This document shows positions 15,635 through 38,007 of a stretch of DNA of 64,000 bases, one piece after another (positions within the stretch are counted from its first letter, which is position 1; each line of letters opens with the position of its first letter). Made by a program: the position numbers and the translations under genes. The notes under the pieces were generated by a model, which was not told where the DNA came from, searched no databases, and was given only the letters and a program-made list of their open reading frames with translations. Source of the stretch: Chitinophagaceae bacterium (GTDB lineage Bacteria > Bacteroidota > Bacteroidia > Chitinophagales > Chitinophagaceae). Where the stretch lies: positions 1 through 64,000 of the forward strand of contig JAICGN010000005.1 in assembly GCA_025923075.1 (NCBI GenBank), read 5' to 3'.

Positions 15635-15649
15635 ACAAACGATATGCCA
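15635..15649 (-). promoter_or_regulatory. TGGCAT box of the YciF-like gene
   Basis: TGGCATATCGTTTGT on the minus strand: a -24 GG and, ten bases on, GT in place of the -12 GC of sigma-54 promoters. One of fifteen related boxes in the window. Confidence 0.5.
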
Positions 15650-15825
15650 TGGGGTAAATGCGCAGTGTAGAGCAATAAAAGGATTACTTAATGATACTTT
15701 GAAACAGTCTGTAAGATTTATTGATATTAATGGGCAAAAGCTGCCTCAAGAGTTATTGTGTTCACTAAGGAATCTGTTGTTGTAACAAAGCCTTGTAATG
15801 ATTGAATTAGTAATAAAACGAAAAA

Positions 15826-15849
15826 TGCCCCGGCTTTATGACCGGGGCA
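15826..15849 (-). terminator. Terminator of lipoprotein A
   Basis: On the minus strand TGCCCCGG / CCGGGGCA forms an 8-bp stem with an 8-base loop, followed by TTTTTCG. It lies 28 bp after the stop of the 15877-16326 gene. Confidence 0.8.
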
Positions 15850-15876
15850 ACTTCAAATCGAAGCTTTTCAATTTCT

Positions 15877-16326
15877 TTAGTGTTGAAATCTCCTGATATA
15901 TTTCACGGGTTGGCCCTGAGAGTTCTGATCGATGTAATATACTTCAAGGATGTTCTCATCCAATTTATTGATCTTTTCAGGTGCGGCAAAAATGGCAAGC
16001 TCTGTTCCGTTGTTAGAAAAAGCCCATCCAAAATCAATCGTGGGTGGTTCTCCGGCACTGCATTGAAGGGTGCCACCCGCATAAACACCAGTACCATTGG
16101 CATTGAATGTATATACATCATCAGTTTCACATTCTAACATGCCGTTTTCAGCTCCTTCAATGATTCCGTTATTATTTTCATCCAGGCCATACATTTCGAA
16201 TTTCCATGATTTTTGAGTAAGTAGTTCTGTTTGCGATTTCGCGGTGTTATCTGTCTTACTACAGGATACACAGATGATAGACAAAAAAAGGCCGATTGTA
16301 ATAGACCTTAAAGCAATTGTTTTCAT
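15877..16326 (-). CDS. Lipoprotein with EF-hand-like loop, paralogue A
   Basis: 149 residues. The lipoprotein signal (SIICVSC, lipobox Cys about residue 22) is followed by a lipocalin-like beta domain. A canonical calcium-loop pattern DENNNGIIEGAE (D1, N3, N5, G6, I8, E12) precedes two conserved Cys that could pair. The C-terminus (ELAIFAAPEKINKLDENILE) is nearly identical in paralogues B (18708-19151) and C (22107-22571). Calcium binding is inferred from the loop only. The gene shares about 100 bp of upstream sequence with B and C, including a TGGCATGATATTT box. Confidence 0.8.
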   Translation of the reverse strand: MKTIALRSITIGLFLSIICVSCSKTDNTAKSQTELLTQKSWKFEMYGLDENNNGIIEGAENGMLECETDDVYTFNANGTGVYAGGTLQCSAGEPPTIDFGWAFSNNGTELAIFAAPEKINKLDENILEVYYIDQNSQGQPVKYIRRFQH

Positions 16327-16358
16327 TTAGGGTTGGGTTTTAAATTTGCATAGTAAGT

Positions 16359-16373
16359 CGAAATATCATGCCA
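16359..16373 (-). promoter_or_regulatory. TGGCAT box of lipoprotein A
   Basis: TGGCATGATATTTCG on the minus strand, about 33 bp before the ATG. Preceded by conserved blocks ACGGATTTTTT and AGGGGAAATAG also seen upstream of paralogues B and C. Confidence 0.5.
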
Positions 16374-16607
16374 ACCAAGGGCTAAAAAATCCGTTAATGA
16401 GCCCTATTTCCCCTTGGTATTAATATCTAATTACGCTCGACAATTTCCGAGTCGGGTAATTACCAGGAAAAGTAAAACTGAGAGATAGAGAGAAATGGGA
16501 ATCTCCACCCTGCAGGGCCCGGAGACCGCCTGCAACTTATTCAATGGACGAATTCCCTCTTTGCAAATGATTGTATCTTGCCAGAACTTACATCAAACAA
16601 CTGAATT

Positions 16608-17066
16608 ATGAAACGGCATTCAGTGATCTTTTTACCATTATCAATACTGCTCTCCTGTTCATCTCCTGACACCCGCAATAAGAATAACGCCCAAAATGAC
16701 AATGCGAGACAGGAAATAGAAAAAGCAGAAAAAGATTTCCAACAGATGGCAGCTGATAAAGGCATTGTTGAAGCATTTTATTTTTTTGCTGATTCAAATG
16801 CAACCATAAAAAGACAAAATGATACATTGATACACGGCAAGGAAGCGATCAAAAATTTTTACTCCACTCCATTTTATCAGAAAGCAACCGTTAAATGGTC
16901 GCCGGATTTTATACAAGCTTCCGAAAACGGAGATATGGGTTATACTTATGGTAAATATGTTTGGTCATCTACAGATTCTACGGGTAAACCCATAAGTTTT
17001 ACCGGCGTTTTTCATACGGTTTGGAAAAGGCAGGTTGACGGAAGCTGGAAATATGTATGGGATTGA
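16608..17066 (+). CDS. NTF2-like (DUF4440) lipoprotein
   Basis: 152 residues. Lipoprotein signal with lipobox LLSCSS (Cys about residue 17), a helical linker, then a SnoaL/DUF4440 cone-shaped domain: EAFYFFADSNATIKRQNDTLIHGKEAIKNFY, GYTYGKYVWSS and the typical ending VWKRQVDGSWKYVWD. Such domains bind small ligands or act as mini-enzymes; the ligand is unknown. Exported and membrane-anchored. It is divergent from lipoprotein A with a 281-bp shared upstream region. Confidence 0.85.
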   Translation: MKRHSVIFLPLSILLSCSSPDTRNKNNAQNDNARQEIEKAEKDFQQMAADKGIVEAFYFFADSNATIKRQNDTLIHGKEAIKNFYSTPFYQKATVKWSPDFIQASENGDMGYTYGKYVWSSTDSTGKPISFTGVFHTVWKRQVDGSWKYVWD

Positions 17067-17168
17067 ATCAAAATGTCATGGCCCTACGAAATGCGTTGGA
17101 GGAAACACGCTGACCACTTTTGCAATTCTTGCTTCATCATTACACTGGCGCTCCTGAACTTTTTATTT

Positions 17169-17183
17169 CTGCATGCCATTTGC
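17169..17183 (+). promoter_or_regulatory. Sigma-54-like box before the 17211 gene
   Basis: CTGCATGCCATTTGC has the -12 GC correctly spaced from a weak -24 (TG in place of GG). It lies 28 bp before the ATG at 17211. Confidence 0.35.
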
Positions 17184-17210
17184 ATGTCCATATAGTAAAA
17201 ACCCTCATTT

Positions 17211-17438
17211 ATGGAAGCACTCCAAGATTTTCAGCGTTCAGAGCTTGCGCATTTATTAGCTAAGGAAACAATAACGTATTATAAGTTGGTAGGATATGGC
17301 GCAAGTGTAGAAGAATGTACACAATGCAATAAAAGGATAAAGCAAATTGAAAAGGAATTAGATTCCCGGAGAAACCCGGAAGAAAAAAAATTGTTTCAGC
17401 GATATTCCGCGGTACCTGCTGATAATTTGACATTATGA
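17211..17438 (+). CDS. Small hypothetical cytoplasmic protein
   Basis: 75 residues, highly charged, predicted helical, with two cysteines in ECTQCNK. No signal peptide. Its last codons overlap the ATG of the outer-membrane gene (17435) by 4 bp, which supports translation and an operon. Not recognised as a known family. A possible sigma-54-like box lies just upstream. Confidence 0.6.
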   Translation: MEALQDFQRSELAHLLAKETITYYKLVGYGASVEECTQCNKRIKQIEKELDSRRNPEEKKLFQRYSAVPADNLTL

Positions 17439-18511
17439 GGGTTTTTGCACACAGCCTGGTCCTGAAAAAATTTATTGGTTGGTTTTCTTTTTTTCTTTTC
17501 GTTGCGCCAATAATCAATGGTCAAATAAATGTTGTAATAGGCGATACGGCTGCGTCATCAAATCCAGATGCAGCGATGGATCGTTACCACCAACTGCTTC
17601 GGCATAATGATCCGATGATGTACCTCGCCTTTCCCGTGATCACGCCTATGTTGGATAGAGCGGTTGCCTTGAAGGATGGTGAAGGCAAGAATGGCTACTG
17701 GGCTGAGGGACATTTCGGGCACCGGTTTGTAATTTATCAGGGAAAATATTATAGCCCATCCTTTGCTCAACGGATGAGATTGACTTTTGATGTTAGCCTT
17801 CTCACTCGCCTGACGCAGGATTATTCAAATCCCCTGCTACCCACAAGTAATAAGTTTGGTTTCGGGCTTGATTATCTCTTTTCTTCGCTGAGAAAGCTAA
17901 GCGAATCGAGGGGTGGTTTAGTATGGACAACTATTCAATTGCATCACTATTCAAACGGTCAGGCTGATAGTTTTTTTCTCAACACTCCATCCCGGAGAAA
18001 CAATTATAAAAGTGGAGATTTCAGTACAAATTACTGGCGGGTTATGTTGAATATATCAAGTAACAGTAGTAATAAGAATCTTGTTATTGCGGGGGTCGGA
18101 TATCAGAATGAAGTTGATCTGGATGGTCCATTCAGTAAAAGCGAAGAGCTAACTCACTATTACGGAGAAAGAAGAATCCTGTTCCATCTTCACTGGCTCA
18201 AAAAACCAATTATACAGACATTAACTACAGTCAATCGGAATAAACCTGGTGGATCCATGGTGAAAAGAGAAGTGCAAAGACAGTTAGGCATAAGAACAGA
18301 GTTTGAATTTATAACTGGCGACCTGTCCGCGTTTCCGCATGACAGTAAATACAGGGTTGGTTGGCACACTTACTTTAATTATATGCCTTCGGTAACAAAT
18401 GAAATAGGGTTTATGGTGCATAGCTTTTTAGGACGAGATTATCTTAATATACGCTTCGATGATGTGGTATTTATTGGAGAATTAGGTTTGTATTTTAAAT
18501 TTAACCGTTAA
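17435..18511 (+). CDS. Outer-membrane phospholipase-like beta-barrel protein
   Basis: 358 residues with a signal peptide (about residues 1-30, ending INGQ) and alternating beta-strand pattern ending in aromatic residues (GLYFKFNR). The striking feature is QLHHYSNGQAD at about residues 167-177, followed by an Asn/Arg-containing segment and YWRVMLNI. HxSNG is the active-site signature of outer-membrane phospholipase A, and HxS also occurs in PagL lipid A deacylases. A hydrolase acting on outer-membrane lipid is therefore likely, but the enzyme class is inference. Co-transcribed with the preceding 75-residue protein. Confidence 0.65.
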   Translation: MRVFAHSLVLKKFIGWFSFFLFVAPIINGQINVVIGDTAASSNPDAAMDRYHQLLRHNDPMMYLAFPVITPMLDRAVALKDGEGKNGYWAEGHFGHRFVIYQGKYYSPSFAQRMRLTFDVSLLTRLTQDYSNPLLPTSNKFGFGLDYLFSSLRKLSESRGGLVWTTIQLHHYSNGQADSFFLNTPSRRNNYKSGDFSTNYWRVMLNISSNSSNKNLVIAGVGYQNEVDLDGPFSKSEELTHYYGERRILFHLHWLKKPIIQTLTTVNRNKPGGSMVKREVQRQLGIRTEFEFITGDLSAFPHDSKYRVGWHTYFNYMPSVTNEIGFMVHSFLGRDYLNIRFDDVVFIGELGLYFKFNR

Positions 18512-18707
18512 TGACTTCAATTGCTTAGCAATTGAAACGCGTGGTCGCAGCCTCCACCGATTTATTTACAAGTCATTGTTTTCATAATCACTTTTTTGTT
18601 TTTTGATCTTATTCAGCGATCATGAAATCAGGTAGTTGTTGTCGCGTCTTAACCTCGTGCAAACTACAGGAACAAATGCCGGCAAACTATTTTGGAACAC
18701 TAGATGA

Positions 18708-19151
18708 TCAATGACGGAATCGCCTGATAAACTTCACCGCCTCTCCTTGAAAGTTTTGATCCATATAATACACTTCAAGGATGTTTTCATCCAGCTTGTT
18801 GATTTTTTCAGGCGCCGCAAAAATGGCCAATTCAGTTTCATTATTCGAAAAACTCCAGGTGAAATTAATCACGGCAGGTTCCCCTTCCGTGCATGGTAAA
18901 GCATAACCTTCAAAGAAGCCTGCCCCATCGACCATAAAAGTAAAAACATCATCTGCTTCACAAGGCATCATATAGTTCTCTGCATCTTCTATCACGCCAT
19001 TGTTGTTTTCGTCCAATCCATAGCGTTCAAATCTCCAGCTCCTTTCAACTAGTAAGGTCGTCTTACTCTCAATAGTTTCTTTAATGCATGACGAAGGAAT
19101 AATAACCGAGAATATGCTAACCAGTGTAAGCTTTAGCCAGGTTGTTTTCAT
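18708..19151 (-). CDS. Lipoprotein with EF-hand-like loop, paralogue B
   Basis: 147 residues; lipobox SSCIK (Cys about residue 22). It has the same architecture as A and C: calcium-loop pattern DENNNGVIEDAE, paired Cys (MPCEADD and LPCTEGEP) and the invariant ELAIFAAPEKINKLDENILE segment. It differs from the others in the middle (FMVDGAGFFEGYA). The upstream region again has a CTGGCATGATATTTAA box and AGGGGAAATAG block. Located between the phospholipase-like gene and the DedA gene. Confidence 0.8.
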   Translation of the reverse strand: MKTTWLKLTLVSIFSVIIPSSCIKETIESKTTLLVERSWRFERYGLDENNNGVIEDAENYMMPCEADDVFTFMVDGAGFFEGYALPCTEGEPAVINFTWSFSNNETELAIFAAPEKINKLDENILEVYYMDQNFQGEAVKFIRRFRH

Positions 19152-19177
19152 AAGTTGATTTTAAGTAACTAGTAGCT

Positions 19178-19192
19178 TTAAATATCATGCCA
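19178..19192 (-). promoter_or_regulatory. TGGCAT box of lipoprotein B
   Basis: TGGCATGATATTTAA on the minus strand, 27 bp before the ATG. Identical over 15 bases to the box of paralogue C. Confidence 0.5.
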
Positions 19193-19383
19193 GCAGGGGG
19201 CAGAAAACTCCGTTCGGGGGTACTATTTCCCCTTCGTATTTTTTTTATTTCAGGCTGAATTTTTCCAGTGAGTGTTGATTTATGGATAGAGCTGTTATTA
19301 AAATCAGTTAAGTTTTTACGCCTTTACAACTTTATACCCTTGTTGGTATTTTAATAATTTTTCAAAGCTTACTGACAAATAAA

Positions 19384-20025
19384 CTACAGTACGTTCTTCT
19401 TATTCTCTTCTCGCATCCTTTTTAATTCTTTAATTATCCAGATAACAAGAGGTATGGTAATAACAAGTATAAAACCGATTACGATATAGTTTAACATTGG
19501 CTTTAAATATGGCCGGCTGCCAATATAGTACCCTGCTAATACAAAACTCAGTACCCAAACCACAGAGCCGGCAACAGAAAGTAAAATGAAACGGCGAAAA
19601 TTCAGCCTGACAACTCCTGCAATAGTGGAAGCGAATGTGCGGATAATAGGCAGGTATAACCCAACAGTTAATGCCAACCAGCCATACTTATTATAAAAGG
19701 TTCCAGCTGTTGTAAGATGTTGTTTTTTGAAGAATCTTGAATCTTTTCGACTATACAACAAAGGACCTGTTTTCCATCCCAACCAATAACCGGTGAGATT
19801 TCCCAATACCGAAGCAAGTATCAGTAAAGCACACACGGTGAAAACATCATACTGGAGGCCACCTGTTGCAATAAATATCCCCGCAGTAAACAATACGGCA
19901 CCTGTGGGTATAAAGAAACAAAAGAATAAACCGGTGCTGCCATAGACCAATAAAAAAACGATCAGCACACCGCCATTACTGATCAACGATTCAGGATCGA
20001 AAATCTTGAGCATGCTATGGAGCAT
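19384..20025 (-). CDS. DedA family membrane protein
   Basis: Polytopic inner-membrane protein of the DedA/SNARE-associated family, now regarded as undecaprenyl-phosphate or phospholipid flippase-like. Hallmarks are FFCFFIPTGAVLFTAGIF, NLTGYWLGWKTGPLL, FYNKYGWLALTVGLYLPIIRTFASTIAGV (the conserved F/GRxxPxxR region reads GLYLPIIRT) and a C-terminal TM pair. The frame also permits ATG starts up to 20085. I favour the Met at 20025 (MLHSMLKIFDPESLI) because family members begin close to the first hydrophobic segment. Confidence 0.85.
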   Translation of the reverse strand: MLHSMLKIFDPESLISNGGVLIVFLLVYGSTGLFFCFFIPTGAVLFTAGIFIATGGLQYDVFTVCALLILASVLGNLTGYWLGWKTGPLLYSRKDSRFFKKQHLTTAGTFYNKYGWLALTVGLYLPIIRTFASTIAGVVRLNFRRFILLSVAGSVVWVLSFVLAGYYIGSRPYLKPMLNYIVIGFILVITIPLVIWIIKELKRMREENKKNVL

Positions 20026-20359
20026 ATTAATGACGCAGTCTGGCATTACGCAGAATAGTTTTTCGTCATTGCCGATATCTTGCATGCTTGTCTGCTACGC
20101 ATATCAGCGAACTAATTGATATAAAGATAACGTATCAGAAATTTACGTGCCGGCCCTTTGCAAGGAAGACGCAAAGAAATTATCCCCTTTTATACATTCA
20201 TGACACATCAACTCCAAATCCAAAAATTCAAAATGACCGAATAATACAGATTGAATCTTTGTCTATTCCAAAATTAAAAATGGTAGAAACACGATTGTCC
20301 GATGTCAAGAAAATGTCAGAAGAGCTGTTTAAATCGCCGCTATGAATTATATTCATTAT

Positions 20360-20387
20360 GAATTTTCATAGGATAAGGTTTAATGGT
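20360..20387 (+). repeat. 28-bp repeat, copy 2
   Basis: Identical, in the opposite orientation, to 178-205. It lies 15 bp after a short open frame (ends 20345) and 19 bp before the hairpin at 20406-20430. See copy 1. Confidence 0.6.
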
Positions 20388-20405
20388 TAATGGTTTTTGA
20401 TTAGC

Positions 20406-21435: not shown

Positions 21436-21450
21436 TAAAAAATCATGCCG
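21436..21450 (-). promoter_or_regulatory. TGGCAT-like box before the NlpC gene
   Basis: CGGCATGATTTTTTA on the minus strand matches the box seen before 38032 (TGGCATGATTTTCTT). It is unusually close to the start codon. Confidence 0.35.
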
Positions 21451-22106: not shown

Positions 22107-22571
22107 TCAATGACTAAATCTTCTGATATACTTCACAGGTTGTCCCTGGGAGTTCTGATCCATATAATAAACTTCAAGGATGTTCGCATCCAGTTTATTT
22201 ATCTTTTCAGGTGCAGCAAAAATTGCCAGTTCTGTTCCGTTGTTTGAAAAACTCCAATTGAAATTTATTACGGCTGGCTCTCCCATACTACAGGGGGTAG
22301 TACCTCCTTCAAAAACACCCGTTCCATTGGCATGAAACGTAAAGATATCGTCGATTTCGCAGGCAAGCATGTTATTCTCTGATTCTTCTATTACACCGTT
22401 ATTGTTTTCATCCAGTCCGTATATCTCGAATTTCCAGCTCTTTTCAATAAGTAAGGCAGTCTGACGATCAATAGTATGGGCTGCTTCCTTTGAGCAGGAT
22501 GTAAAAAAAGGTGTAATAAAAATAGCTGAGAAGAAGCTTAATATAATAAGCTTTGGCGTGATCGTTTTCAT
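22107..22571 (-). CDS. Lipoprotein with EF-hand-like loop, paralogue C
   Basis: 154 residues; lipobox FFTSCSK (Cys about residue 26). Third member of the A/B/C family, with calcium-loop pattern DENNNGVIEESE, conserved Cys pair (LACEIDD and TPCSMGEP) and the invariant ELAIFAAPEKINKLDANILE segment. DNA similarity to A and B extends about 110 bp upstream of the gene, so promoter and gene were duplicated together. Confidence 0.8.
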   Translation of the reverse strand: MKTITPKLIILSFFSAIFITPFFTSCSKEAAHTIDRQTALLIEKSWKFEIYGLDENNNGVIEESENNMLACEIDDIFTFHANGTGVFEGGTTPCSMGEPAVINFNWSFSNNGTELAIFAAPEKINKLDANILEVYYMDQNSQGQPVKYIRRFSH

Positions 22572-22602: not shown

Positions 22603-22617
22603 TTAAATATCATGCCA
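22603..22617 (-). promoter_or_regulatory. TGGCAT box of lipoprotein C
   Basis: TGGCATGATATTTAA on the minus strand, 32 bp before the ATG, preceded by AACGGATTTTTAGCC and AGGGGAAAATGG blocks shared with paralogues A and B. Confidence 0.5.
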
Positions 22618-25569: not shown

Positions 25570-25584
25570 ATAAGAATCAGGCCA
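25570..25584 (-). promoter_or_regulatory. TGGC-box before paralogue 1
   Basis: TGGCCTGATTCTTAT on the minus strand, 43 bp before the ATG at 25527. It shares TGGCCTGAT with the box before the LEA-type gene (31112). Confidence 0.35.
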
Positions 25585-26675: not shown

Positions 26676-26690
26676 TGGCATTATTTTTTC
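26676..26690 (+). promoter_or_regulatory. TGGCAT box before the 26742 gene
   Basis: TGGCATTATTTTTTC: -24 GG and, ten bases on, TC instead of GC. It lies 52 bp before the ATG. Confidence 0.45.
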
Positions 26691-26741: not shown

Positions 26742-27107
26742 ATGAAAAAGTTATTGTTATTAATGATGGGCGTTGCCTTTGTAGGTACAGCTGCGATGGC
26801 GCAATTAGAACAAAAAGATTACAAAAAGGAAAAGGCAGAATGGGAGAACAAGATCAAAGAGGAGTTAAAATTGAGTGCTGACCAGTTAGTTAAATACGAT
26901 GCTCTTACCAAAGAGTATGATGACAAGTTTTCTGCTATTGCACAAGACGCTAACCTAAGTAAAGATGCACAGAAGGAAAAGAAGATGAGCTTGAAAAAAG
27001 AAAAAGAAGCAAAACTTTTTGAATTTCTTACTCCTGAGCAACAAACACGCTACAAAGAATTAATTGAAAAGAAGAAAAAGGAAATGGAGAAACCGGCAAA
27101 CGGTTGA
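26742..27107 (+). CDS. Secreted Spy/LTxxQ-like helical protein
   Basis: 121 residues with signal peptide (LLLLMMGVAFVGTAAMAQ) and a long, Lys/Glu-rich helical mature part. ELKLSADQLVKYDALTKEYDDKF and LFEFLTPEQQTRYKELIEKKKKEMEK are reminiscent of the LTxxQ motifs of Spy/CpxP periplasmic chaperones. A stress-related periplasmic role is therefore plausible but not proved. A TGGCAT box precedes and an 11-bp perfect stem terminator follows. Confidence 0.72.
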   Translation: MKKLLLLMMGVAFVGTAAMAQLEQKDYKKEKAEWENKIKEELKLSADQLVKYDALTKEYDDKFSAIAQDANLSKDAQKEKKMSLKKEKEAKLFEFLTPEQQTRYKELIEKKKKEMEKPANG

Positions 27108-27714: not shown

Positions 27715-29343
27715 TTACCTATTGTAAGAATAAGTATTCACAAAAGTTGATAATTCGTTCTTGCTTGATTGACTTGTCAACACTTCATACATCAGGTTGA
27801 AATTTTGAGGATCGGTAATATTACCATAAGCCGATTTTGCTAATTGTAATCTGTTACTTTCAGAGCTCACCAGCTGAATTAATTGTTTTGCCTGAGCAAC
27901 GGTGAAATAATAACTATCATTATCAAAAATTTCGGTAAGCTCGGACATTTTTGCACCAAATCCCCATGTGTTTTTAACGTTATTGTATAAAGTATTAAAA
28001 CTGGTGCTCGACATTGGTGTTCTGTTGGTGTAAGCCGGAGTTGTAGACCCTGGAGTCGTATTTTGATAATCCCTTACATATACTTCCAGTTCATTCCTGC
28101 TGGTGGTGCTTGAAAACACATCATATAATTGATTGAAATTAACCTGGTCAACAATGTTGTCGTATGATGCTTTAGCAAGCTCAAGCCTGTTACTTTCGGA
28201 ACTTACTAATTGGATAAGCTGTCGCGCCTGAGCTACGGTGAAATAATAATTTTCGTTTGCAAATACATTTTGCAGGGCTGACATTTTTGCGCCAAGACCA
28301 AAACGATTTTGAATGTCCCTGTACAGCACATTATAATCATCATCTTTCATCGCAATCCTTGTATAAACGGGATTGCTATCATCGTAAGTACTTACAAAGG
28401 TGCTTAGCTCATTTCTGTTTGCTTGACTATTAAGGAGAGCAGACATCTGTGAAAAATTATTTCTGTCGATAATACTTCTGTAAGAAATTTTAGCCAGGTA
28501 AAGCCTGTTTGGTTCATCCGGAACTAACAGAATCAATCGCCGGGCTTGTGACACCGTGAAAAAATTATTGGTGTTGGCAAAAGCGTTGTAGATATATGAC
28601 ACTCTTGAATTGACTGTTGATTGCCGTTTTGCGGTTTTGTAAAGCGTATTAAACGCTGCATTGGTCATCGCTGTTGATGAACTTCCTGCATTATATGTGC
28701 TTACATAGTCTGCTAGTTGGTCTCTGTACGACTGGCTGTTGAATACATCATACATCTGCGTAAAATTAACGGGATCGGTAATACCGCGATATGCTGCTTT
28801 TGCGAGGGTGAAACGGTTACTTTGATTGTTGATCAGCTGTATCAACTGTTTGGCCTGCGCTGTTGTAAAATAATTACTCTTATTTGCAAATGCATCGCTA
28901 ACTAATGTCACCTTGTTAGAATTCCTCCATTGGCTTCGAACGCTGTTATAAAGGGTATTAAAATCAGCAGCGCTCATTGGAGTTGCATATTCGGCAATAT
29001 TATTATCCGCGCGCCATTTAATTTCTTTTGATTGTACGCTGCCATTTGCAGTTATCGTGATTTGCAGATCGTAGCCGTTCCTTATCGTGAATACTGTCGA
29101 TGAGGGGTTGACTTCATTGATACGCCTTATCTGCAATGTATGTTGTCCCGACTGAAGGTTTGAAACAACTATTGGCGTATTGGTATTCGTATTGTAATCA
29201 TTGCTCACTACATACTCCTTGCCGTCAATAATAATAGCTTCATTGTTATTTCCTCTAACGTTAATTGTTACAGTACTTACAGTCTGGCTGATCACCGACG
29301 TTGTTATTATACAACTGACGAGGAAAAGGGATATCGTTTTCAT
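27715..29343 (-). CDS. Secreted DUF4476 four-repeat protein
   Basis: 542 residues: signal peptide (LFLVSCIITTSVISQ), an N-terminal beta-sandwich (about 25-125) and four tandem DUF4476 units of roughly 95-105 residues. Each unit runs from an xxFNTLYxxV start to an NYFTxAQAxQLIQLxxxESNR helix and an NFxxxYDVxxS(x)xSRxEL end. DUF4476 is a Bacteroidota family of unknown function, perhaps protein-binding. The open frame continues to 29472, but signal peptide, paralogue pattern and the TGGCAT box at 29389-29403 all favour the ATG at 29341-29343. Confidence 0.82.
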   Translation of the reverse strand: MKTISLFLVSCIITTSVISQTVSTVTINVRGNNNEAIIIDGKEYVVSNDYNTNTNTPIVVSNLQSGQHTLQIRRINEVNPSSTVFTIRNGYDLQITITANGSVQSKEIKWRADNNIAEYATPMSAADFNTLYNSVRSQWRNSNKVTLVSDAFANKSNYFTTAQAKQLIQLINNQSNRFTLAKAAYRGITDPVNFTQMYDVFNSQSYRDQLADYVSTYNAGSSSTAMTNAAFNTLYKTAKRQSTVNSRVSYIYNAFANTNNFFTVSQARRLILLVPDEPNRLYLAKISYRSIIDRNNFSQMSALLNSQANRNELSTFVSTYDDSNPVYTRIAMKDDDYNVLYRDIQNRFGLGAKMSALQNVFANENYYFTVAQARQLIQLVSSESNRLELAKASYDNIVDQVNFNQLYDVFSSTTSRNELEVYVRDYQNTTPGSTTPAYTNRTPMSSTSFNTLYNNVKNTWGFGAKMSELTEIFDNDSYYFTVAQAKQLIQLVSSESNRLQLAKSAYGNITDPQNFNLMYEVLTSQSSKNELSTFVNTYSYNR

Positions 29344-29388
29344 AATATTATTAGTTTTATTGATAGTGTAGTTTTGTTTATAGTTTAT

Positions 29389-29403
29389 GAAAGACAAATG
29401 CCA
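29389..29403 (-). promoter_or_regulatory. TGGCAT box of the DUF4476 gene
   Basis: TGGCATTTGTCTTTC on the minus strand, 46 bp before the chosen ATG. It lies inside the longer reading frame, so it decides for the shorter protein. Confidence 0.45.
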
Positions 29404-29523
29404 TACCAATAAGACAACACGCAGAAATACGACGCAAATGGTAGAACAAGGAGTGTAGCGTTTTCGCCCCATTTGTTTTTTCTTGTTGTTCGATGTCTGG
29501 ATGTTATTGCATCAAAAAAAGAA

Positions 29524-29570: not shown

Positions 29571-29792
29571 CTACGCACTTTTCTTTTCACCACCTCGAAG
29601 CAATGCTACTAATAATAGAATGAATACTGCACCTCCAATTACCCATACAATAGGGTTTTGATACCATTCATTTTCTTTCTTCACACTTATATCAACATCA
29701 ACGCCTTTTTCCTGGGCAAATGTCAGTACGCTGAAGAAGCATAAAAATGTAAATGTTGTGAATCGTAGCCATAACCCGCTGATCTTTTTCAT
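29571..29792 (-). CDS. Signal-peptide/single-TM protein, paralogue 2
   Basis: 73 residues: MKKISGLWLRF, signal peptide ending SVLTFAQ, a short linker (EKGVDVDISVKKE), then EWYQNPIVWVIGGAVFILLLVALLRGG as a C-terminal TM helix. Same layout as 25267-25527 (EWYTSPWVWVAGGAVFIIILVALMRG), so the two are paralogues 4 kb apart. A textbook sigma-54-like promoter, TGGCATCTTTTTTGC, lies about 108 bp upstream of the ATG. Function unknown. Confidence 0.72.
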   Translation of the reverse strand: MKKISGLWLRFTTFTFLCFFSVLTFAQEKGVDVDISVKKENEWYQNPIVWVIGGAVFILLLVALLRGGEKKSA

Positions 29793-29899: not shown

Positions 29900-29914
29900 G
29901 CAAAAAAGATGCCA
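29900..29914 (-). promoter_or_regulatory. Sigma-54 promoter match before paralogue 2
   Basis: TGGCATCTTTTTTGC on the minus strand fits TGGCAyN5TTGC completely: GG and GC separated by ten bases. It is the best -24/-12 match in the window and overlaps the divergent region of the 29970 gene. Confidence 0.6.
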
Positions 29915-29933: not shown

Positions 29934-29948
29934 TGGCATGTATTTTTC
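29934..29948 (+). promoter_or_regulatory. TGGCAT box before the 29970 gene
   Basis: TGGCATGTATTTTTC, with TC in place of the -12 GC, 22 bp before the ATG. It is divergent from the sigma-54-like promoter at 29900-29914. Confidence 0.45.
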
Positions 29949-29969: not shown

Positions 29970-30260
29970 ATGGCTAAATCTGTGAATAAACCTTCTTTAA
30001 GTGGGGAAGGGAAAAAAGGAAGAAACAACAAACAAAAATCAATTTCACAAGGTAAAACTGCGAAAGAGATAGTAAAAAGACACTTAAGTGATGAGAATGA
30101 CAAAATAACCGAGGATGATCTAAAACATTTAAAAATAGATCTGACAATACCGAAAGACAAAGCCCATCAGCCATTAAAGATTAAGAAGAGAAAAGATAGG
30201 CCAAAAGATGAAGAGAAGGATAAATCGACACTAACTCCCTGGGATGTGATTGGTGAATGA
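29970..30260 (+). CDS. Lysine-rich small hypothetical protein
   Basis: 96 residues, very basic (KPSLSGEGKKGRNNKQKSIS, PLKIKKRKDRPKDEEKDKS), no signal peptide, probably largely disordered with one short acidic stretch (DENDKITEDDLKHLKID). Ends TPWDVIGE, a tail I recall from small Bacteroidota proteins without a function. Could bind nucleic acid, but nothing in the sequence proves it. Preceded by a TGGCAT box. Confidence 0.65.
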   Translation: MAKSVNKPSLSGEGKKGRNNKQKSISQGKTAKEIVKRHLSDENDKITEDDLKHLKIDLTIPKDKAHQPLKIKKRKDRPKDEEKDKSTLTPWDVIGE

Positions 30261-31170: not shown

Positions 31171-31644
31171 ATGAAAAGATTAATACTCATTTTGGCTCCG
31201 GCCGCTTTTCTTTTTGGTTCATGTAAGTCAGACAATATACGAGATCCTGAATACCGCGAAATTCAGAATGTACGTATTATGGATGTTGGTCTGCTGCAAA
31301 CTACCGCAGGCCTTGATTTGGTTTATTATAATCCAAACGACTTTGGCGTTACGCTTAGCCAGGCAAGAGGAGATGTCTATATTGATAATATGTTTTTCGG
31401 CCGGTTTGGGATCAGTGATAAAGTCGCTGTTAGCAAACGCCGCGAATTCATAATTCCCGCGGTATTGAAAATGGATAATATCAGCGCTGTAAAAAATCAT
31501 CGTGAGATATTCAGAAAGAAACAGGCATTGATCAGGATTGAAGGATTTGCTACGGTGAGGAAGGCAGGTTTTAACAAAGATGTTCCAATTAAGTACGAAG
31601 GGATTCAGGACATAGAGCGTCTCCGTTCACTTGTCGCAAATTAA
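31171..31644 (+). CDS. LEA type 2 family lipoprotein
   Basis: 157 residues. Lipobox LFGSCKS (Cys about residue 17), then a late-embryogenesis-abundant type 2 (water stress/WHy-like) beta-sandwich: DVGLLQTTAGLDLVYYNPNDFGVTLSQARGDVYIDNMFFGRF. The YYNPNxFGVTL core is the family hallmark. These periplasmic lipoproteins are linked to desiccation or envelope stress in other organisms; here the role is inference. A TGGC-box lies upstream and a strong rho-independent terminator follows. Confidence 0.85.
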   Translation: MKRLILILAPAAFLFGSCKSDNIRDPEYREIQNVRIMDVGLLQTTAGLDLVYYNPNDFGVTLSQARGDVYIDNMFFGRFGISDKVAVSKRREFIIPAVLKMDNISAVKNHREIFRKKQALIRIEGFATVRKAGFNKDVPIKYEGIQDIERLRSLVAN

Positions 31645-31805: not shown

Positions 31806-31820
31806 TGGCACCGTTTTTCT
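31806..31820 (+). promoter_or_regulatory. TGGCAC box before the glycine-zipper gene
   Basis: TGGCACCGTTTTTCT: perfect -24 half, -12 reads CT instead of GC. It lies 51 bp before the ATG at 31871. Confidence 0.45.
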
Positions 31821-31870
31821 ATATATAGGTTGTAATGAAAAATAATTTAATCATCTTAAAAAACTCAGTT

Positions 31871-32341
31871 ATGAAACAACCTTTACTAGTTATTGTTATT
31901 GCCATAGCTGCAGTAGCATCTGTAGCAGCAGTAGTCGGTATCAGCAGCAATTCTAAAATGAAAAAAGTTGATGCCGCAGAATTAGCACAATTCGAAACAT
32001 GGAAAGAAACAAAGGCATTAGAAGCCTTAGAAACGCAGAAGGCAAGTTATACTGCCCCAAAGACCGCAACCAGAAGTACAGCAGCAAAACGTACTGTAAA
32101 TTATCAGAGTCCTAAAATGGTTTCTGAAACACAAAACAGTGCTAAAACGGCAACCGCGAAGAAAGGCTGGAGCAAGGCTGCAAAAGCAACAGCGATCGGC
32201 GCTGGTGCTGGCGCAGTTCTTGGCGCCGTCATTCACAAACGTAATCGTGCAGTCGGTGCTGTTGTCGGTGGTGTTGTTGGCGGTGGTGGTGGCTATGTTA
32301 TTGGACGTAGTATGGATAAAAAAGATGGACGGGTGCAATAA
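31871..32341 (+). CDS. Glycine-zipper membrane protein
   Basis: 156 residues: N-terminal TM/signal anchor (LLVIVIAIAAVASVAAVVGI), an Ala/Thr/Lys-rich linker (about 30-100), then a C-terminal glycine-zipper region (AIGAGAGAVLGAVIHKRNRAVGAVVGGVVGGGGGYVIG) like YMGG/Gly-zipper_2 proteins that form membrane-spanning or oligomeric hairpins. A frame starting at 31835 exists, but the TGGCAC box at 31806-31820 would leave it almost leaderless, so the ATG at 31871 is preferred. Terminator follows. Confidence 0.72.
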   Translation: MKQPLLVIVIAIAAVASVAAVVGISSNSKMKKVDAAELAQFETWKETKALEALETQKASYTAPKTATRSTAAKRTVNYQSPKMVSETQNSAKTATAKKGWSKAAKATAIGAGAGAVLGAVIHKRNRAVGAVVGGVVGGGGGYVIGRSMDKKDGRVQ

Positions 32342-33313: not shown

Positions 33314-33373
33314 GATCAGGTTTTGGTACTTTTGTTTCTTAACTGTATTAATTTCTCCACTAAATAATTGGAA

Positions 33374-34168
33374 ATGAAAAAAAGGTTCAAACCTCTCTGT
33401 CTCATTGCCCTGCTTTTATGTGGTCTTATCATTCAATCGTGGGTGCCAACGGATGATACTCAGGGCGAATTCTATCAACTTAGTATTTATCATTTCAGCA
33501 ATACAACACAGGAAAAGATGCTGGATAGCTATTTAGAAAACGCCTTACTTCCGGCTTTGCATAAACTGAGAATGAAAAATATCGGGGTTTTTAAAAACCA
33601 TTCAAATGATACGCTTTCGGATAAAACATTATACGTGTTACTACCCGCCCGATCGACAGAAGATCTATTTAAAATACCAATAAAATTAAACGCTGACAAG
33701 GACTACCAGTCTGCAGGTGCTGCATACATTAATGCTGCCCATACTTCCCCACCCTATGCGAGAATGGAGACAATTTTACTCCAGGCTTTTTCATTGTCGC
33801 CCAAACTCAAGGTACCTGCCTTAAAAGAACCAAGGAGAAACAGGATATATGAATTGCGCAGTTATGAAAGTGCGACCGAGAAAATTTTCCAAAACAAGGT
33901 TAAAATGTTTAATGAGGGCGATGAGATCGGCTTATTCAAGCGACTCAATTTTAATGCAGCCTTTTATGGTGAAGTCATTGCAGGCAGTAAGATGCCGAAT
34001 CTAATGTATATGACATGTCATGAAAATCAGACCTCAAGAGATGCCAACTGGAAAGCGTTTGTGGATGATCCTTTTTGGAAAAAACTTTCTGCAATGCCGG
34101 AATACCAGCATAACGTTTCTCATATTGATATTTTATTTCTTTATCCCACTGAATATTCAGATTACTAA
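33374..34168 (+). CDS. Secreted NIPSNAP family protein
   Basis: 264 residues with signal peptide (LCLIALLLCGLIIQSW) and two NIPSNAP ferredoxin-like (dimeric alpha/beta barrel) repeats: EFYQLSIYHFSNTTQEKMLDSYLENALLPALHK and RIYELRSYESATEKIFQNKVKMFNEGDEIGLFKRL, ending with WKAFVDDPFWKKLSAMPEY. Bacteroidota NIPSNAP proteins are often exported and unassigned. The frame opens two codons earlier at a TTG; the ATG at 33374 (MKKRFKPLC) gives a proper signal peptide. Confidence 0.85.
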   Translation: MKKRFKPLCLIALLLCGLIIQSWVPTDDTQGEFYQLSIYHFSNTTQEKMLDSYLENALLPALHKLRMKNIGVFKNHSNDTLSDKTLYVLLPARSTEDLFKIPIKLNADKDYQSAGAAYINAAHTSPPYARMETILLQAFSLSPKLKVPALKEPRRNRIYELRSYESATEKIFQNKVKMFNEGDEIGLFKRLNFNAAFYGEVIAGSKMPNLMYMTCHENQTSRDANWKAFVDDPFWKKLSAMPEYQHNVSHIDILFLYPTEYSDY

Positions 34169-34180
34169 GAAGAACGTGGA

Positions 34181-34966
34181 TCACTCACCTAACTTGTTTT
34201 TTTTAAAATTTTCCCATTGTTGGGTACTCATTTTTTCGGTCTTTATTAATTGCATCATTCCATTTTCAAAACCCGGTTCGTCCGGTAATTCAATTTTATA
34301 TTGTTCTATCATAAAATTTTCCTGGTTCACCCAGATATGTCCCCCTTTGTTTTCAAGGCCAGGGCCGTTGGCGAAATATTTCAAACATTGCTTATTGTTA
34401 ACCATTTCCTCGCCGTTGAATTTTACCGTCACTTTTCCCTTATTTACTAATTTTGGGTTGGCATTAACCATTGCCACATCCGCGATGTGAAACCAGAATT
34501 GATCCTTTTTATTTTTTAGCGAACGCCAGATAAAACTCAGGCCGGCAAAATCAAAATCATAACTCTGCCAGGGCAAATCGCTGATCAAAAGTGAATCCCG
34601 CATCTCTCCCACTTCGATTTTCAAATTTTTATCCCCTTTAAGTCGTGCGATAAATTCAGGAGCCAGTCCTTTCTTTAATTTATGGTTCTGAAACTCACCT
34701 ACAGAATATGTATTCCAATCAATAATTGCAGTTACCAGGGTGGCTACTTCATCTCCTTCCGACCATTTGAAGGATTCAAGCCTGTTGCTGTCTGCTACGT
34801 ACAGAAAAACACGAGAAGAGTGAGTGCCATCCCAATTGGATTTTTTGTATTCGTACAGGAGATGCTTATCTGTGAACGAGCCCGGCTTGTCAAATTTGTT
34901 TATTTGCGCCGTAACAGTAACCGAAAAACTGACAATAAAGACGATTAAAAACGGGGTGGTTTTCAT
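34181..34966 (-). CDS. Exported hypothetical protein
   Basis: 261 residues with signal peptide (FLIVFIVSFSVTVTAQ). The mature protein is beta-rich (HLLYEYKKSNWDGTHSSRVFLYVADSNRLESFKW, VTVKFNGEEMVNNKQCLKYFANGPGLENKGGHIWVNQENFMIEQYKIELPDEPGF), resembling outer-membrane-lipoprotein-sorting-like or DUF3108-type beta barrels that bind lipid. No catalytic motif is apparent. Convergent with the NIPSNAP gene, 12 bp apart. Confidence 0.75.
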   Translation of the reverse strand: MKTTPFLIVFIVSFSVTVTAQINKFDKPGSFTDKHLLYEYKKSNWDGTHSSRVFLYVADSNRLESFKWSEGDEVATLVTAIIDWNTYSVGEFQNHKLKKGLAPEFIARLKGDKNLKIEVGEMRDSLLISDLPWQSYDFDFAGLSFIWRSLKNKKDQFWFHIADVAMVNANPKLVNKGKVTVKFNGEEMVNNKQCLKYFANGPGLENKGGHIWVNQENFMIEQYKIELPDEPGFENGMMQLIKTEKMSTQQWENFKKNKLGE

Positions 34967-35040
34967 TTTTTAGCCTTTGACGCAGGGCACACAAGAAGGT
35001 TACAGTTTTTTCGAACAGTTTCGGTCATTCTAATTATGGA

Positions 35041-35055
35041 TTGCACGATTATTGC
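35041..35055 (+). promoter_or_regulatory. Sigma-54-like promoter before the 35090 gene
   Basis: TTGCACGATTATTGC differs from TGGCACGN4TTGC at one position; the -12 GC is intact. It lies 35 bp before the ATG at 35090 and inside the longer frame from 35036. Confidence 0.5.
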
Positions 35056-35089
35056 TTTAAATTCGACTCACTACCTAAAGCCTTTCTTT

Positions 35090-35671
35090 ATGAAATCCTC
35101 TTTTTTTCTTCGCATTTATTTCGCCGCAGTTGCTATGTTAATAATGGCAAGTCTGCACGCACAGAGCTTAAAAAGTCTTGACGAAAATAATGGATTTAAA
35201 AAGTATAAGCTTGGATCAAAGTTCGTGCTTGGATATGGGGTGAAGCATAAGGATCCGGACGGAGCGGATAAAATTGTTATAGACTATCTAAAAGAAACAA
35301 TTGGTGATATACCTGTCAGAGCAGTTGAGTTATATTATCTAAAAGACACGCTTGCAAAGATCATTGTAAAAGTTTCACCTGAGTACCATGCAAAGCTTAT
35401 TGAGGCTGTAAAGAGCTCGTTTGGCCCTCCTACCCAGGACATCAGCAGTAACGAAAAAGCAAATTTTGACACTACGTTCTCGCCACATTTATATAAAGAT
35501 GATTATCTATGGAAAACAGGCCGCCTCAGGTTGGAATACTTTTACTCTTACCCAAAAATAAGTGGCGGAGCTTATGGTGTTAAAAATCTGTATCTCGCTT
35601 ATGTTTTAAATGATTATGGCCAGCGGTTGCAACGGGTGCAAAGAGGTGCCAATTCAGCAAAGAATTTTTGA
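35090..35671 (+). CDS. Exported hypothetical protein
   Basis: 193 residues with signal peptide (FFLRIYFAAVAMLIMASLHAQ). The mature part is predicted alpha/beta: NGFKKYKLGSKFVLGYGVKHKDPDGADK, VELYYLKDTLAKIIVKVSPEYHAKLIEAVKSSFGPP, GRLRLEYFYSYPKISGG. It resembles periplasmic proteins measuring a ligand-dependent fold change but I do not recognise the family. The frame can start at 35036, but the promoter-like site at 35041-35055 makes the ATG at 35090 more likely. Confidence 0.72.
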   Translation: MKSSFFLRIYFAAVAMLIMASLHAQSLKSLDENNGFKKYKLGSKFVLGYGVKHKDPDGADKIVIDYLKETIGDIPVRAVELYYLKDTLAKIIVKVSPEYHAKLIEAVKSSFGPPTQDISSNEKANFDTTFSPHLYKDDYLWKTGRLRLEYFYSYPKISGGAYGVKNLYLAYVLNDYGQRLQRVQRGANSAKNF

Positions 35672-35691
35672 TTAAGTAGTATCTTCATTTG

Positions 35692-36204
35692 ATGCCGATT
35701 TCATTTGCAGAAGGGAAAGATATTTGTTCAATGGTAACGTTAATGGACAGCGCTTATCGAGGCGAGAGCTCCAAACAAGGCTGGACATCTGAGGCCGATC
35801 TTTTTATCGGCAATAAAAGAACTGATGAAGCCACTATATCTAAATTGATAACCCAACCGGGCTCAGTATTTCTGAAATATACGAATGAAGATGGGATCAT
35901 TCAAGGCTGCGTTTATCTTCACAAGAAAGAATCGAGACTTTACCTGGGAATGTTTTCGGTGTCCCCTGCTGCACAAGGAAAAGGCATCGGCAAAAAATTA
36001 CTAGCTGCAGCCGATGAACATGCAAAAGCACAGAACTGTTCTTCTATCTACATGACCGTGATAACCGTTCGTGAAGAACTGATCGCCTGGTATGAAAAAA
36101 ATGGCTACCGGCGAACTGGCAAAGTACTTCCCTTCCCTGTTGATGAACGTTTTGGTATTCCCACACAGCCGCTTGAAATGATGGTGCTGGAAAAGTATGT
36201 ATGA
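35692..36204 (+). CDS. GNAT family N-acetyltransferase
   Basis: 170 residues. GNAT fold with the acetyl-CoA-binding segment LYLGMFSVSPAAQGKGIGKKLLAAADEHAK (Q/RxxGxG/A reads AAQGKGIG) and the C-terminal ELIAWYEKNGYRRTGK motif. Substrate unknown. A TTG precedes the ATG at 35692 in frame; ATG is chosen. Intact, unlike the GNAT pseudogene at 27204, which it does not closely resemble. Confidence 0.88.
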   Translation: MPISFAEGKDICSMVTLMDSAYRGESSKQGWTSEADLFIGNKRTDEATISKLITQPGSVFLKYTNEDGIIQGCVYLHKKESRLYLGMFSVSPAAQGKGIGKKLLAAADEHAKAQNCSSIYMTVITVREELIAWYEKNGYRRTGKVLPFPVDERFGIPTQPLEMMVLEKYV

Positions 36205-36303
36205 GCGTATAAACAGACGAAAATAAGACTGTATAAGTTTATTAGAATTCTGAAAAAAATAAAGAGGCCCCGATTGAAGACCTTCTATGAAAAAGAGCGA
36301 TAA

Positions 36304-36657
36304 TTAATTCTCAAGCATCCCATCATCTTTGAAACTCTTGAAAACGGCAATAGTATCAGCTGCTAGTTTTTGGGATTTTTTAAAGGGCATAAAACCCTTG
36401 TCAGTCGGATTTAATTCAATACGACGGACGATCTCGTCAATATCTGCTTTCACGTTTGCATAGTTATCGTATGCCTTTTTATTGCCTCCTTTCGAAGGAA
36501 TATGGCAAGGTGAGCATTTATCAGCAATGACCGGTGCAAGTGTTGCCGCATAAGTTGTTTTTGGAACAGCTGCAGCGATCGCCTTTTTTGATGAAGAGCA
36601 ATAAGTAAGGCCTAATAATAAAATAGCCATAGCGCCGAATACATAAATTTTATTCAT
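36304..36657 (-). CDS. Cytochrome c-type lipoprotein
   Basis: 117 residues. Signal with lipobox-like LLLGLTYCSSS (Cys about residue 20), then a single haem-binding CSPCH motif at about residues 49-53 and a downstream Met in GFMPFKKS as likely sixth ligand. The size and DKCSPCHIPSKGG signature fit small class I c-type cytochromes or haem-binding domain proteins of Bacteroidota. Likely periplasmic or surface, electron transfer. Single gene; no partner oxidase nearby. Confidence 0.8.
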   Translation of the reverse strand: MNKIYVFGAMAILLLGLTYCSSSKKAIAAAVPKTTYAATLAPVIADKCSPCHIPSKGGNKKAYDNYANVKADIDEIVRRIELNPTDKGFMPFKKSQKLAADTIAVFKSFKDDGMLEN

Positions 36658-36763
36658 TCCTTAGGTTTTAGTTTTTAAATGTATTGAAAATTATTTAACG
36701 AAAAAAACATTACTGATTTGATAATTGTCAAAATTATCCGCGTGGTACATTTGCATCTCTCTT

Positions 36764-37972
36764 ATGTTAATGCCTGTTCTAAGAACTTATAAAAACGCAT
36801 ATACCGGTTTATCCCGTCCAACATGGCTGCTATCCACTGTAATGCTTATTAACAGAAGTGGTACGATGGTAGTGCCCTTTCTTACGCTTTATCTTATCAG
36901 GATGGGTTATAGTGTATCAATGGCAGGGATCGTATTTGCATTTTTTGGCTTTGGGGCCTTTAGCGGAGCTTACGTTGGCGGAAGGCTTACAGATAAGATC
37001 GGGTTTTATCCTGTACAGATCATAACCTTGCTTGGCGGAGGTATTATGTTTTTTGTTTTATCAGAAATGAAAACGTACTGGCTGATTTGTCTTTTTACTT
37101 ATCTCCTTGCGTTTATAAATGAAGCTTTTCGACCTGCTAATTCCACTGCTATTGCATTTTATAGTAAAGCAGAAAACCGCACCAGATCTTATGCTCTTAA
37201 CAGGCTTGCAATTAACATAGGATGGGCATTGGGAAGTTCCATTGGCGGTGTGCTTGCGGATATTGATTACACATTATTGTTTTATGTGGATGGTATCACC
37301 AACATTGCCGCGGCAATCTTGATTTGGCTTTTTTTAAAACCGGTAAAGGTTAATGAAGAGAATGAAAAACAAACGGCACCTATAAAATTGATGTCCGCCT
37401 ATAAAGATAAAACATACCTACTTTTTATTTTTCTAACTATATTTTTTGCTAGCTGCTTTTTCCAATTTTTCACCAACCTTTCTCCATTTTTTTACAAGGA
37501 ATTGCATTTTTCGGAGACCCTGATTGGTTTTTTGTTGGCCATAAATGGCGTTATCATAGCCCTGGTTGAAATGGTACTAATCTATAAATTGGAAGGCAAA
37601 GGCAGAGACATCCAGTATATTTCCCTGGGAATATTTATGGTAGGGCTATCTTTTTTCATGCTCAATATCCCGGGAATGGGGCCTATTCTGGCTTTTTCCA
37701 CAATCACTCTTTTAACCTTTGGGGAAATTTTTTCCATGCCATTTATGAATAGTTTTTGGATCAGCAGAACGCAGGCCGGCAATCGTGGCCAATATGCCGC
37801 CCTATATACAATGGCATGGTCAGCGGCTCAGACTCTCGGACCCCTTGGCGGCTCATTACTCGCTGGCCAGTTTGGTTTTAAGTGGCTGTGGTTCAGTGCG
37901 GGAACAGTTTGTATCATCGTAGCATTTGCTGTTAAAAAATTGAGAAGAACGGGACATCTGCCGATAAAATAA
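36764..37972 (+). CDS. MFS transporter
   Basis: About 402 residues with twelve predicted TM helices. The MFS loop 2-3 motif reads GGRLTDKIGFYPVQ, and the N-terminal half has the usual RPANSTAIAFYSKAENRTRSYALNRLAINIGWALGSSIGG region typical of drug/H+ antiporter-like YdgA/MFS_1 proteins. The open frame reaches a TTG at 36725, but that region is hydrophobic without a proper N-terminus; ATG 36764 is preferred (36770 also possible). Substrate unknown. Inner membrane. Confidence 0.85.
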   Translation: MLMPVLRTYKNAYTGLSRPTWLLSTVMLINRSGTMVVPFLTLYLIRMGYSVSMAGIVFAFFGFGAFSGAYVGGRLTDKIGFYPVQIITLLGGGIMFFVLSEMKTYWLICLFTYLLAFINEAFRPANSTAIAFYSKAENRTRSYALNRLAINIGWALGSSIGGVLADIDYTLLFYVDGITNIAAAILIWLFLKPVKVNEENEKQTAPIKLMSAYKDKTYLLFIFLTIFFASCFFQFFTNLSPFFYKELHFSETLIGFLLAINGVIIALVEMVLIYKLEGKGRDIQYISLGIFMVGLSFFMLNIPGMGPILAFSTITLLTFGEIFSMPFMNSFWISRTQAGNRGQYAALYTMAWSAAQTLGPLGGSLLAGQFGFKWLWFSAGTVCIIVAFAVKKLRRTGHLPIK

Positions 37973-37992
37973 GCCCCGGTATCCCGGTTACT

Positions 37993-38007
37993 TGGCATGA
38001 TTTTCTT
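37993..38007 (+). promoter_or_regulatory. TGGCAT box before the 38032 gene
   Basis: TGGCATGATTTTCTT preceded by T (TTGGCATG), 25 bp before the ATG at 38032. The -12 half is TT. Confidence 0.45.

Follow-up and report, generated by a model that had tools for sequence, protein, structure and literature searches.

A TGGCA-headed box before stress and envelope genes of a Chitinophagaceae bacterium, a candidate variant sigma-54-type promoter class

What kind of promoter stands before a cluster of small stress and envelope genes in a Chitinophagaceae bacterium, and which factor would read it? The question is raised by a stretch of 64,000 nucleotides (positions 1 to 64,000 of contig JAICGN010000005.1, assembly GCA_025923075.1), called the window throughout, which is part of contig C5 of a genome of 4.98 Mb in 274 contigs. 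A first-pass annotation of the window had listed fifteen related 15-mers pointing at genes and had read them as promoters of sigma-54 (RpoN) with a good TGGCA -24 half and a relaxed -12 half, controlling a regulon of exported stress proteins. Here we describe an oriented element of 15 bp, TGGCAY-RRWW-TTT-NN, which accounts for ten of the fifteen sites, recurs before stress genes of related species, and differs in its -12 half from the heat-shock promoters of the same family. From comparison of these sequences, we consider it probable that the box is a variant sigma-54-type promoter class, the core element of a general-stress regulon, and that it is read by the RpoN holoenzyme.

A clustered and oriented box

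Because circularity had to be avoided, the scoring matrix was trained on 30 sites before DUF892 genes of other genomes only, and was then applied to the bacterium's own genome. A strong site scores at least 11 bits, while the weak sites of the first-pass list score 4.7-8.1 bits. Between 14 and 39.5 kb of the window lie 33 called genes, many of them small, which we call the island; their upstream regions hold 10 strong sites, where order-1 resampling leads one to expect 0.5. Upstream of the other 31 window genes there are none, and a genome sample of 400 kb (20 stretches, 334 genes) yields 7 where 2.2 are expected. The two densities differ with p=1e-7, and the antisense control gives 2 sites in the island and 2 in the sample. 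Simple patterns agree with the matrix. For TGGCATNNNNTTT, 2.1 matches are expected in the window and 8 are found, a count reached in 0 of 100 shuffles, and the pattern is also found outside the window, with 99 matches genome-wide against 51 for the reversed pattern. TGGCAYNNNNTTT lies upstream of window genes 8 times in the sense orientation (2 antisense) and is absent from 36.8 kb of upstream sequence of the sample. A loose canonical sigma-54 pattern, allowing up to two mismatches, shows no excess in the window, and so neither supports nor refutes the list of fifteen sites.

The sites and the genes that define them are as follows.

15635..15649, minus strand: strong box TGGCATATCGTTTGT, 12.0 bits, 46 bp before the DUF892 gene 14995-15588
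16359..16373, minus strand: strong box TGGCATGATATTTCG, 15.7 bits, 32 bp before the lipocalin-like gene 15877-16326
19178..19192, minus strand: strong box TGGCATGATATTTAA, 16.3 bits, 26 bp before the paralogue 18708-19151
21436..21450, minus strand: strong box CGGCATGATTTTTTA, 15.6 bits, 12 bp before the NlpC/P60 gene 20773-21423 (Pfam)
22603..22617, minus strand: strong box TGGCATGATATTTAA, 16.3 bits, 31 bp before the paralogue 22107-22571
26676..26690, plus strand: strong box TGGCATTATTTTTTC, 13.9 bits, 51 bp before the small gene 26742-27107, which has a signal-like N-terminus
29900..29914, minus strand: strong box TGGCATCTTTTTTGC, 12.6 bits, 107 bp before 29571-29792; the only strong site with GC at -12
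29934..29948, plus strand: strong box TGGCATGTATTTTTC, 15.2 bits, 21 bp before 29970-30260; divergent to the box at 29900
31806..31820, plus strand: strong box TGGCACCGTTTTTCT, 13.8 bits, 14 bp before the glycine-zipper gene 31835-32341 and 50 bp from a second ATG at 31871
37993..38007, plus strand: strong box TGGCATGATTTTCTT, 16.2 bits, 24 bp before 38032-38277
14995..15588, minus strand: DUF892 (YciF-like) gene, Pfam PF05974, E=1.4e-57; its orthologues gave the independent training set
15877..16326, minus strand: lipocalin-like gene, first of three box-bearing paralogues; Lipocalin_4 just under the Pfam cut-off
18708..19151, minus strand: second paralogue, no Pfam match
22107..22571, minus strand: third paralogue, no Pfam match
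17169..17183, plus strand: weak listed site, not accepted, 4.7 bits, without TGGCA
25570..25584, minus strand: weak listed site, possible, 8.1 bits
29389..29403, minus strand: weak listed site, not accepted, 5.7 bits
31112..31126, plus strand: weak listed site, possible, 6.9 bits, before the LEA_2-like gene 31171-31644
35041..35055, plus strand: weak listed site, possible canonical-type sigma-54 site, 5.4 bits, TTGC at -12

All fifteen 15-mers are present at their coordinates. The ten strong sites are a subset of them and stand before genes as claimed, nine at 12-51 bp from the ATG and one at 107 bp, whereas the five weak ones cannot be told from background (1.85 sites of at least 8 bits are expected in the island by resampling). 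Nine of the ten begin with TGGCA and the tenth with CGGCA, so a -24 element with GG is present in each. What survives is a shared oriented box whose -24 half resembles that of sigma-54, placed as a promoter would be in front of stress and envelope genes and clustered in this stretch. The sites at 16359, 19178 and 22603 precede paralogues that resemble one another in their upstream DNA, which brings the number of independent sites closer to eight.

The same box can be followed into relatives, for which we took 80 named DUF892 loci from Bacteroidota; the closest DUF892 relative found (87% identity) belongs to a Chitinophagaceae metagenome-assembled genome, and TGGCATATCGTTTGT itself also precedes the DUF892 orthologue of the nearest relative, L115. 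TGGCAY occurs 68 times in these loci at 10-60 bp before a called gene. Aligned, the 68 sites have R at positions 7-8, W at 9-10, T at 11 (76%), 12 (78%) and 13 (59%), and then T or G, and DUF892 sites chosen by TGGCAY alone have T at 11-13 in 90, 81 and 62%. The strongest sites share a GATNTTT core that is absent from the sigma-54 consensus. Upstream of genes in the 80 loci, TGGCAYNNNNTTT is found 36 times in the sense orientation against 6.5 expected, once reversed, and 23 times antisense, where divergent genes that share an upstream region account for at least part of the count. Most boxes lie 20-45 bp from the ATG, the peak of the distances. Alignment of the 68 sites with 24 bp upstream and 20 bp downstream shows no second conserved block beyond an A-richness from position 28, which is A in 65% of them. 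In a further set, 79% of 39 sites (those long enough, of 42) have a purine at position 28, the top purine column between 16 and 42. Transcription by sigma-54 is expected to start about 12-13 bp after the -12 element, so the preferred purine in relatives lies about one base off, as a sequence signature only. The primary sigma factor of Bacteroidota has a box TAnnTTTG at -12 to -5 (PMC9723704), and the present sites do not follow that pattern: position 7 is T in 11% and position 8 is A in 41% of 27 sites, and the preferred purine in relatives lies 14 bp after position 14, where a primary-sigma start is expected 5 bp after TTTG.

The island encodes, among others, DUF892 (YciF-like), NlpC/P60, VTT-domain, glycine-zipper, DUF4476, VanZ and CBS proteins by Pfam, and the LEA_2-like product is below the Pfam cut-off. 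The proposal that the regulon consists of exported proteins found no support, as a crude signal test was positive for 7 of 10 strong-site genes and 14 of 23 other island genes. The three paralogues, though dispersed, resemble one another over the roughly 45 bp that precede the box, where stretches of GGGGAAA and ACGGA occur. Elsewhere in the window, 27715-29472 encodes a protein of 585 amino acids with four DUF4476 stretches, and Rfam and tRNA scans of the window were empty. On contig C21 (L021:711-18340), four upstream sites of at least 11 bits lie within 20 kb, possibly a second island of the regulon.

The -12 half and the heat-shock genes

The consensus for sigma-54 is TGGCAC-N5-TTGC, with GC in its -12 half, spaced 10 bp from the GG of the -24 half. 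For comparison within the family, we used grpE and groES, since sigma-54 motifs are reported at their mapped starts in Flavobacterium psychrophilum (PMC9723704). Sites were taken as the nearest TGGCA 8-115 bp upstream, and were found for 23 of 30 grpE and 21 of 30 groES genes, denominators that retain several loci at which the wrong open reading frame was taken. Position 14 is G in 21 of 23 grpE and 20 of 21 groES sites, while C at position 15 is rare (3/23 and 3/21). The rpoN gene behaves in the same way: YGGCNN-N-ATTTTT occurs upstream in 23 of 62 records, and the next base, which the pattern leaves free, is G in 23 of 23. Because the G is held while the C is rare, the Chitinophagaceae, as judged from these sites, keep the -12 G and not the C. 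The groES sites (L329-L388 groES/grpE loci) often have TCG at 12-14 in place of the TTG of grpE, a gene-specific -12 variant.

The stress class looks different. We define it as the 41 promoter-positioned TGGCATGATNTTT sites in other family genomes that carry the activator described below; 3 of 41 have the -12 G and 2 of 41 have GC. Set against 41 of 44 for grpE and groES together, the difference in G gives p=5e-17, for sites that come from related genomes and are not independent. The strong window sites have G in 2 of 10 and GC in 1 of 10, and the DUF892 sites are intermediate, with G at 14 in 29% of 21 (TGGCAY is present at 12-60 bp in 21 of 79 genes). The first-pass idea of a merely relaxed -12 half does not fit this class, which has a T-tract at 11-13 and lacks the G that the family's grpE and groES keep. 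Since the -12 GC of sigma-54 was looked for and is not a property of the class, we do not count the box among ordinary sigma-54 promoters, although it most likely would work like one.

RpoN, a candidate activator and the genes behind the box

The genome has one rpoN gene, on contig C103. RpoN is present in 60 of 60 family genomes and in all 49 genomes from which 50 of the 80 DUF892 loci come, and its presence or absence is unusable as a test of dependence, being universal in the genomes examined. The protein aligns over residues 3-495 with the Klebsiella/E. coli-type sigma-54 of solved structures and retains the RpoN box. One residue of the sigma-54 helix-turn-helix, E378, is called highly conserved in one study (PMC5505868). 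At the position corresponding to Klebsiella E378, identified by alignment and by spacing to R383, all 62 RpoN records examined (two of them the same gene) have I or V, with R383 retained, a substitution that could change how the -12 half is read. About 60 bp before the rpoN gene itself, 23 of 62 records have YGGCNN-N-ATTTTTG, and in 10 records, the bacterium's own genome among them, a second element follows at a distance of 19 bp. These CGGCCTGATTTTTGA-like elements before rpoN (in the own genome, L231 upstream of 4696) suggest autoregulation.

Four strong sigma-54 activators (PF00158) are encoded in the genome. The one on contig C22 has a receiver (PF00072), an AAA+ domain (PF00158) with the GSFTGA loop, and a Fis-type helix-turn-helix (PF02954), the architecture of an NtrC-type bacterial enhancer-binding protein, and has a box-like site of 11.2 bits 44 bp upstream. 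Its neighbours encode a response regulator, a CHASE3 kinase, DUF2383, an SDR enzyme, Ku, LigD and a receiver-PAS kinase, and the Ku gene has a 12.9-bit site 19 bp upstream. Relatives of this activator, 45-55% identical to it, are found about 0.5 kb away from DUF892 in L130, at other places within the DUF892 loci L141, L182 and L192, and next to rpoN in two Dyadobacter loci, L216 and L221. In 15 of 60 family genomes there are two rpoN genes, and the second adjoins a C22-type activator in 14 of the 15. Genome G026 (L066:8570-14417) has all of these in order: rpoN2, the NtrC-type activator, two histidine kinases, and then the box, 29 bp before a DUF5670 gene.

Do box and activator occur together? 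Raw counts of TGGCATGATNTTT in the family, own genome excluded, are 57 in 162 Mb with the activator and 13 in 83.5 Mb without it (p=0.003, or 0.014 without G026). Such counts include matches inside coding DNA, where the reversed control is probably under-represented because of its TAG, and matches were therefore re-counted by promoter position. All 96 were classified, 76 in the 60 family genomes and 20 in 18 family genomes added from a draw of the order. With the activator, 45 are promoter-positioned, 17 lie inside reading frames and 9 are neither; without it, the numbers are 8, 13 and 4. With the own genome left out, at least one promoter-positioned match occurs in 26 of 40 genomes with the activator and 7 of 37 without (p=7e-5, uncorrected for kinship), and promoter and coding matches divide 41/16 and 8/13 (p=0.009). 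The association of box and activator within the family is suggestive.

The genes behind the box were characterized by Pfam on 40 products, namely those of 38 of the 41 promoter-positioned matches in other activator-bearing genomes (without L053, L077 and L314), one of the own genome (L026), and the CsbD gene L075, whose site is classed as coding. They include YtxH (7, two above the cut-off), PAS/receiver kinases (3), outer-membrane protein barrels (3, one below the cut-off), BON (2), DUF3185 (2) and PAP2 (2, one being the own-genome product), and one each of CsbD, DUF2383, DUF5670, YflT (below the cut-off), PNPOx-like, flavin reductase, LpxR, CAP, YceG, DUF4382 and a Por sorting domain. Nine of the 40 have no Pfam match at E 0.01 or better, and one has coiled-coil matches below the cut-off only. 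In the own genome outside the window, sites of at least 11 bits precede HSP20, DUF4342, Ku, the activator and rpoN, of which the HSP20 and DUF4342 stretches were chosen for containing the pattern and are not an unbiased sample.

Which factor reads the box, and what it would mean

From the box, its geometry, its distinct -12 half and its gene content we infer RpoN binding, activator dependence and stress induction. RpoN would grip the TGGCA half through its conserved RpoN box, and the -12 half, with a T-tract at 11-13 where the usual G would be, would be read differently from that of the heat-shock class. Opening of the promoter would be triggered by the C22-type NtrC activator, which is paired in some relatives with a second RpoN and would itself answer to the CHASE3 and PAS histidine kinases encoded nearby, and the stretch from 14 to 39.5 kb would be one island of the general-stress regulon.

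Several results pull the other way, beginning with the scarcity of the -12 GC, the feature most diagnostic of sigma-54, and of its G in the stress class and in the window sites. Fewer than 20 bp separate the box from the ATG in 8 of 46 and in 5 of 42 sites, which leaves little room for a start at position 28 if the start codons are correctly assigned. Among the ten strong window sites, moreover, purines are not preferred at 28 (4/10), which slightly lowers our confidence. A dyad search of 51 upstream regions, a set that includes L075 and L283 (a locus of another family), gave no convincing shared activator-binding palindrome. The link to the activator is also uneven: the match-level test in the first 60 genomes gives 35/15 against 4/6 promoter/coding (p=0.14), the 18 added genomes alone show a weak link (5/7 against 4/11), and raw counts in newly drawn genomes of the order, outside the family, do not differ, with 22 in 106 Mb with and 111 in 597 Mb without the activator. 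A promoter-positioned box occurs in 7 of 37 activator-free family genomes, that of G057 preceding a DUF5670-like gene. Moreover, the threshold for calling the activator (E near 1e-105) was chosen with a gap in the values already in view, G038 counts as a carrier by a partial match, and the statistics ignore genome size, habitat and kinship.

The main rival is that the box belongs to another factor, either a sigma-70-type extracytoplasmic function (ECF) sigma factor or a DNA-binding regulator whose site happens to start with TGGCA. The -12 G in 3 of 41 stress sites against 41 of 44 for grpE and groES, the GATNTTT core beyond the sigma-54 consensus, the activator-binding site not found in the 51 regions, and the missing purine at 28 in the window speak for it. 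Against it, the aligned flanks hold no second block apart from the A-richness, the usual 20-50 bp to the ATG leave little space for a separate one downstream, and the preferred start at 28 in relatives is unlike that of the primary sigma box (PMC9723704). The activator, moreover, adjoins the second RpoN and co-occurs with the box in the family. We therefore hold another factor to be unlikely, while taking it seriously.

A further alternative keeps RpoN and denies the class, seeing ordinary sigma-54 promoters whose weak -12 halves have drifted. The rarity of C at 15 in grpE and groES means that the -12 half of the family departs from consensus generally, and the DUF892 sites are mixed. We find drift improbable all the same: G at 14 is held before grpE, groES and rpoN and is present in only 3 of 41 stress sites, and drift alone would not retain the T-tract of the TGGCAY-chosen DUF892 sites. 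Chance matches combined with duplication of a promoter along with the three paralogues have in their favour the five weak sites of fifteen and the similar DNA upstream of three strong ones, and are very improbable indeed given the independent training set, the recurrence in other genera, and a clustering that persists when the paralogues are counted once (8/31 against 7/334, p=5e-6).

Taken as a variant sigma-54-type promoter, the box can be set beside known systems. With -24/-12 promoters it shares the TGGCAY half, the contiguous 15 bp, and the presence of RpoN and activators; it differs in lacking the -12 GC and in having the T-tract and, in the strongest sites, the GATNTTT core. General-stress regulons of other bacteria (RpoS, SigB and, as in PMC7083833, EcfG) hold CsbD, YtxH, YciF-like and YflT-like families, which overlap with the genes behind the box, although they are run by sigma-70-family factors where a sigma-54-type box stands here. 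In the Borrelia Rrp2-RpoN-RpoS pathway, as outlined in the literature, an enhancer-binding activator and RpoN likewise head an adaptation programme, one that works through RpoS, whereas here the boxes stand directly before stress genes. Sigma-54 has also been portrayed as a controller of the bacterial exterior (PMC3162934), and surface-related targets are a common theme. Closest is the SM4 regulon of F. psychrophilum, in which genes for chaperones, envelope stress and exported proteins have sigma-54 motifs at their mapped starts (PMC9723704), so that a tie between sigma-54, protein quality control and envelope stress in Bacteroidota is already known. SM4, as that paper presents it (PMC9723704), has typical -24/-12 elements, activators left unassigned, and chaperones, Lon, envelope and gliding genes among its targets, where DUF892/YtxH/CsbD-type genes are found here. 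Among the literature matches listed, mostly open-access papers, none names a general-stress sigma system for Chitinophagaceae, and the separate promoter class, its activator and a DUF892/YtxH/CsbD-type regulon are absent from them.

To our knowledge, no general-stress sigma system has been described for Bacteroidota. The presence of the box in front of stress genes of related species as well points to a stress-response circuit that is so far undescribed in the group. More tentatively, and as a possibility that we favour less than the promoter class itself, the Chitinophagaceae, and perhaps other soil Bacteroidota, may use sigma-54 for their general stress response. A class that has a T-tract for the -12 G would be opened by an NtrC-type activator dedicated to it, together with CHASE3/PAS kinases and often a second RpoN of the activator's own, and one RpoN could serve two classes, heat shock with the G and general stress without it, distinguished by the -12 half. 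A family-wide box before stress genes, a candidate activator and its kinases make the question of general stress directly testable. They bear as well on the role of the sigma-54 -12 element, since promoter sets that have its G and sets that lack it occur within one family.

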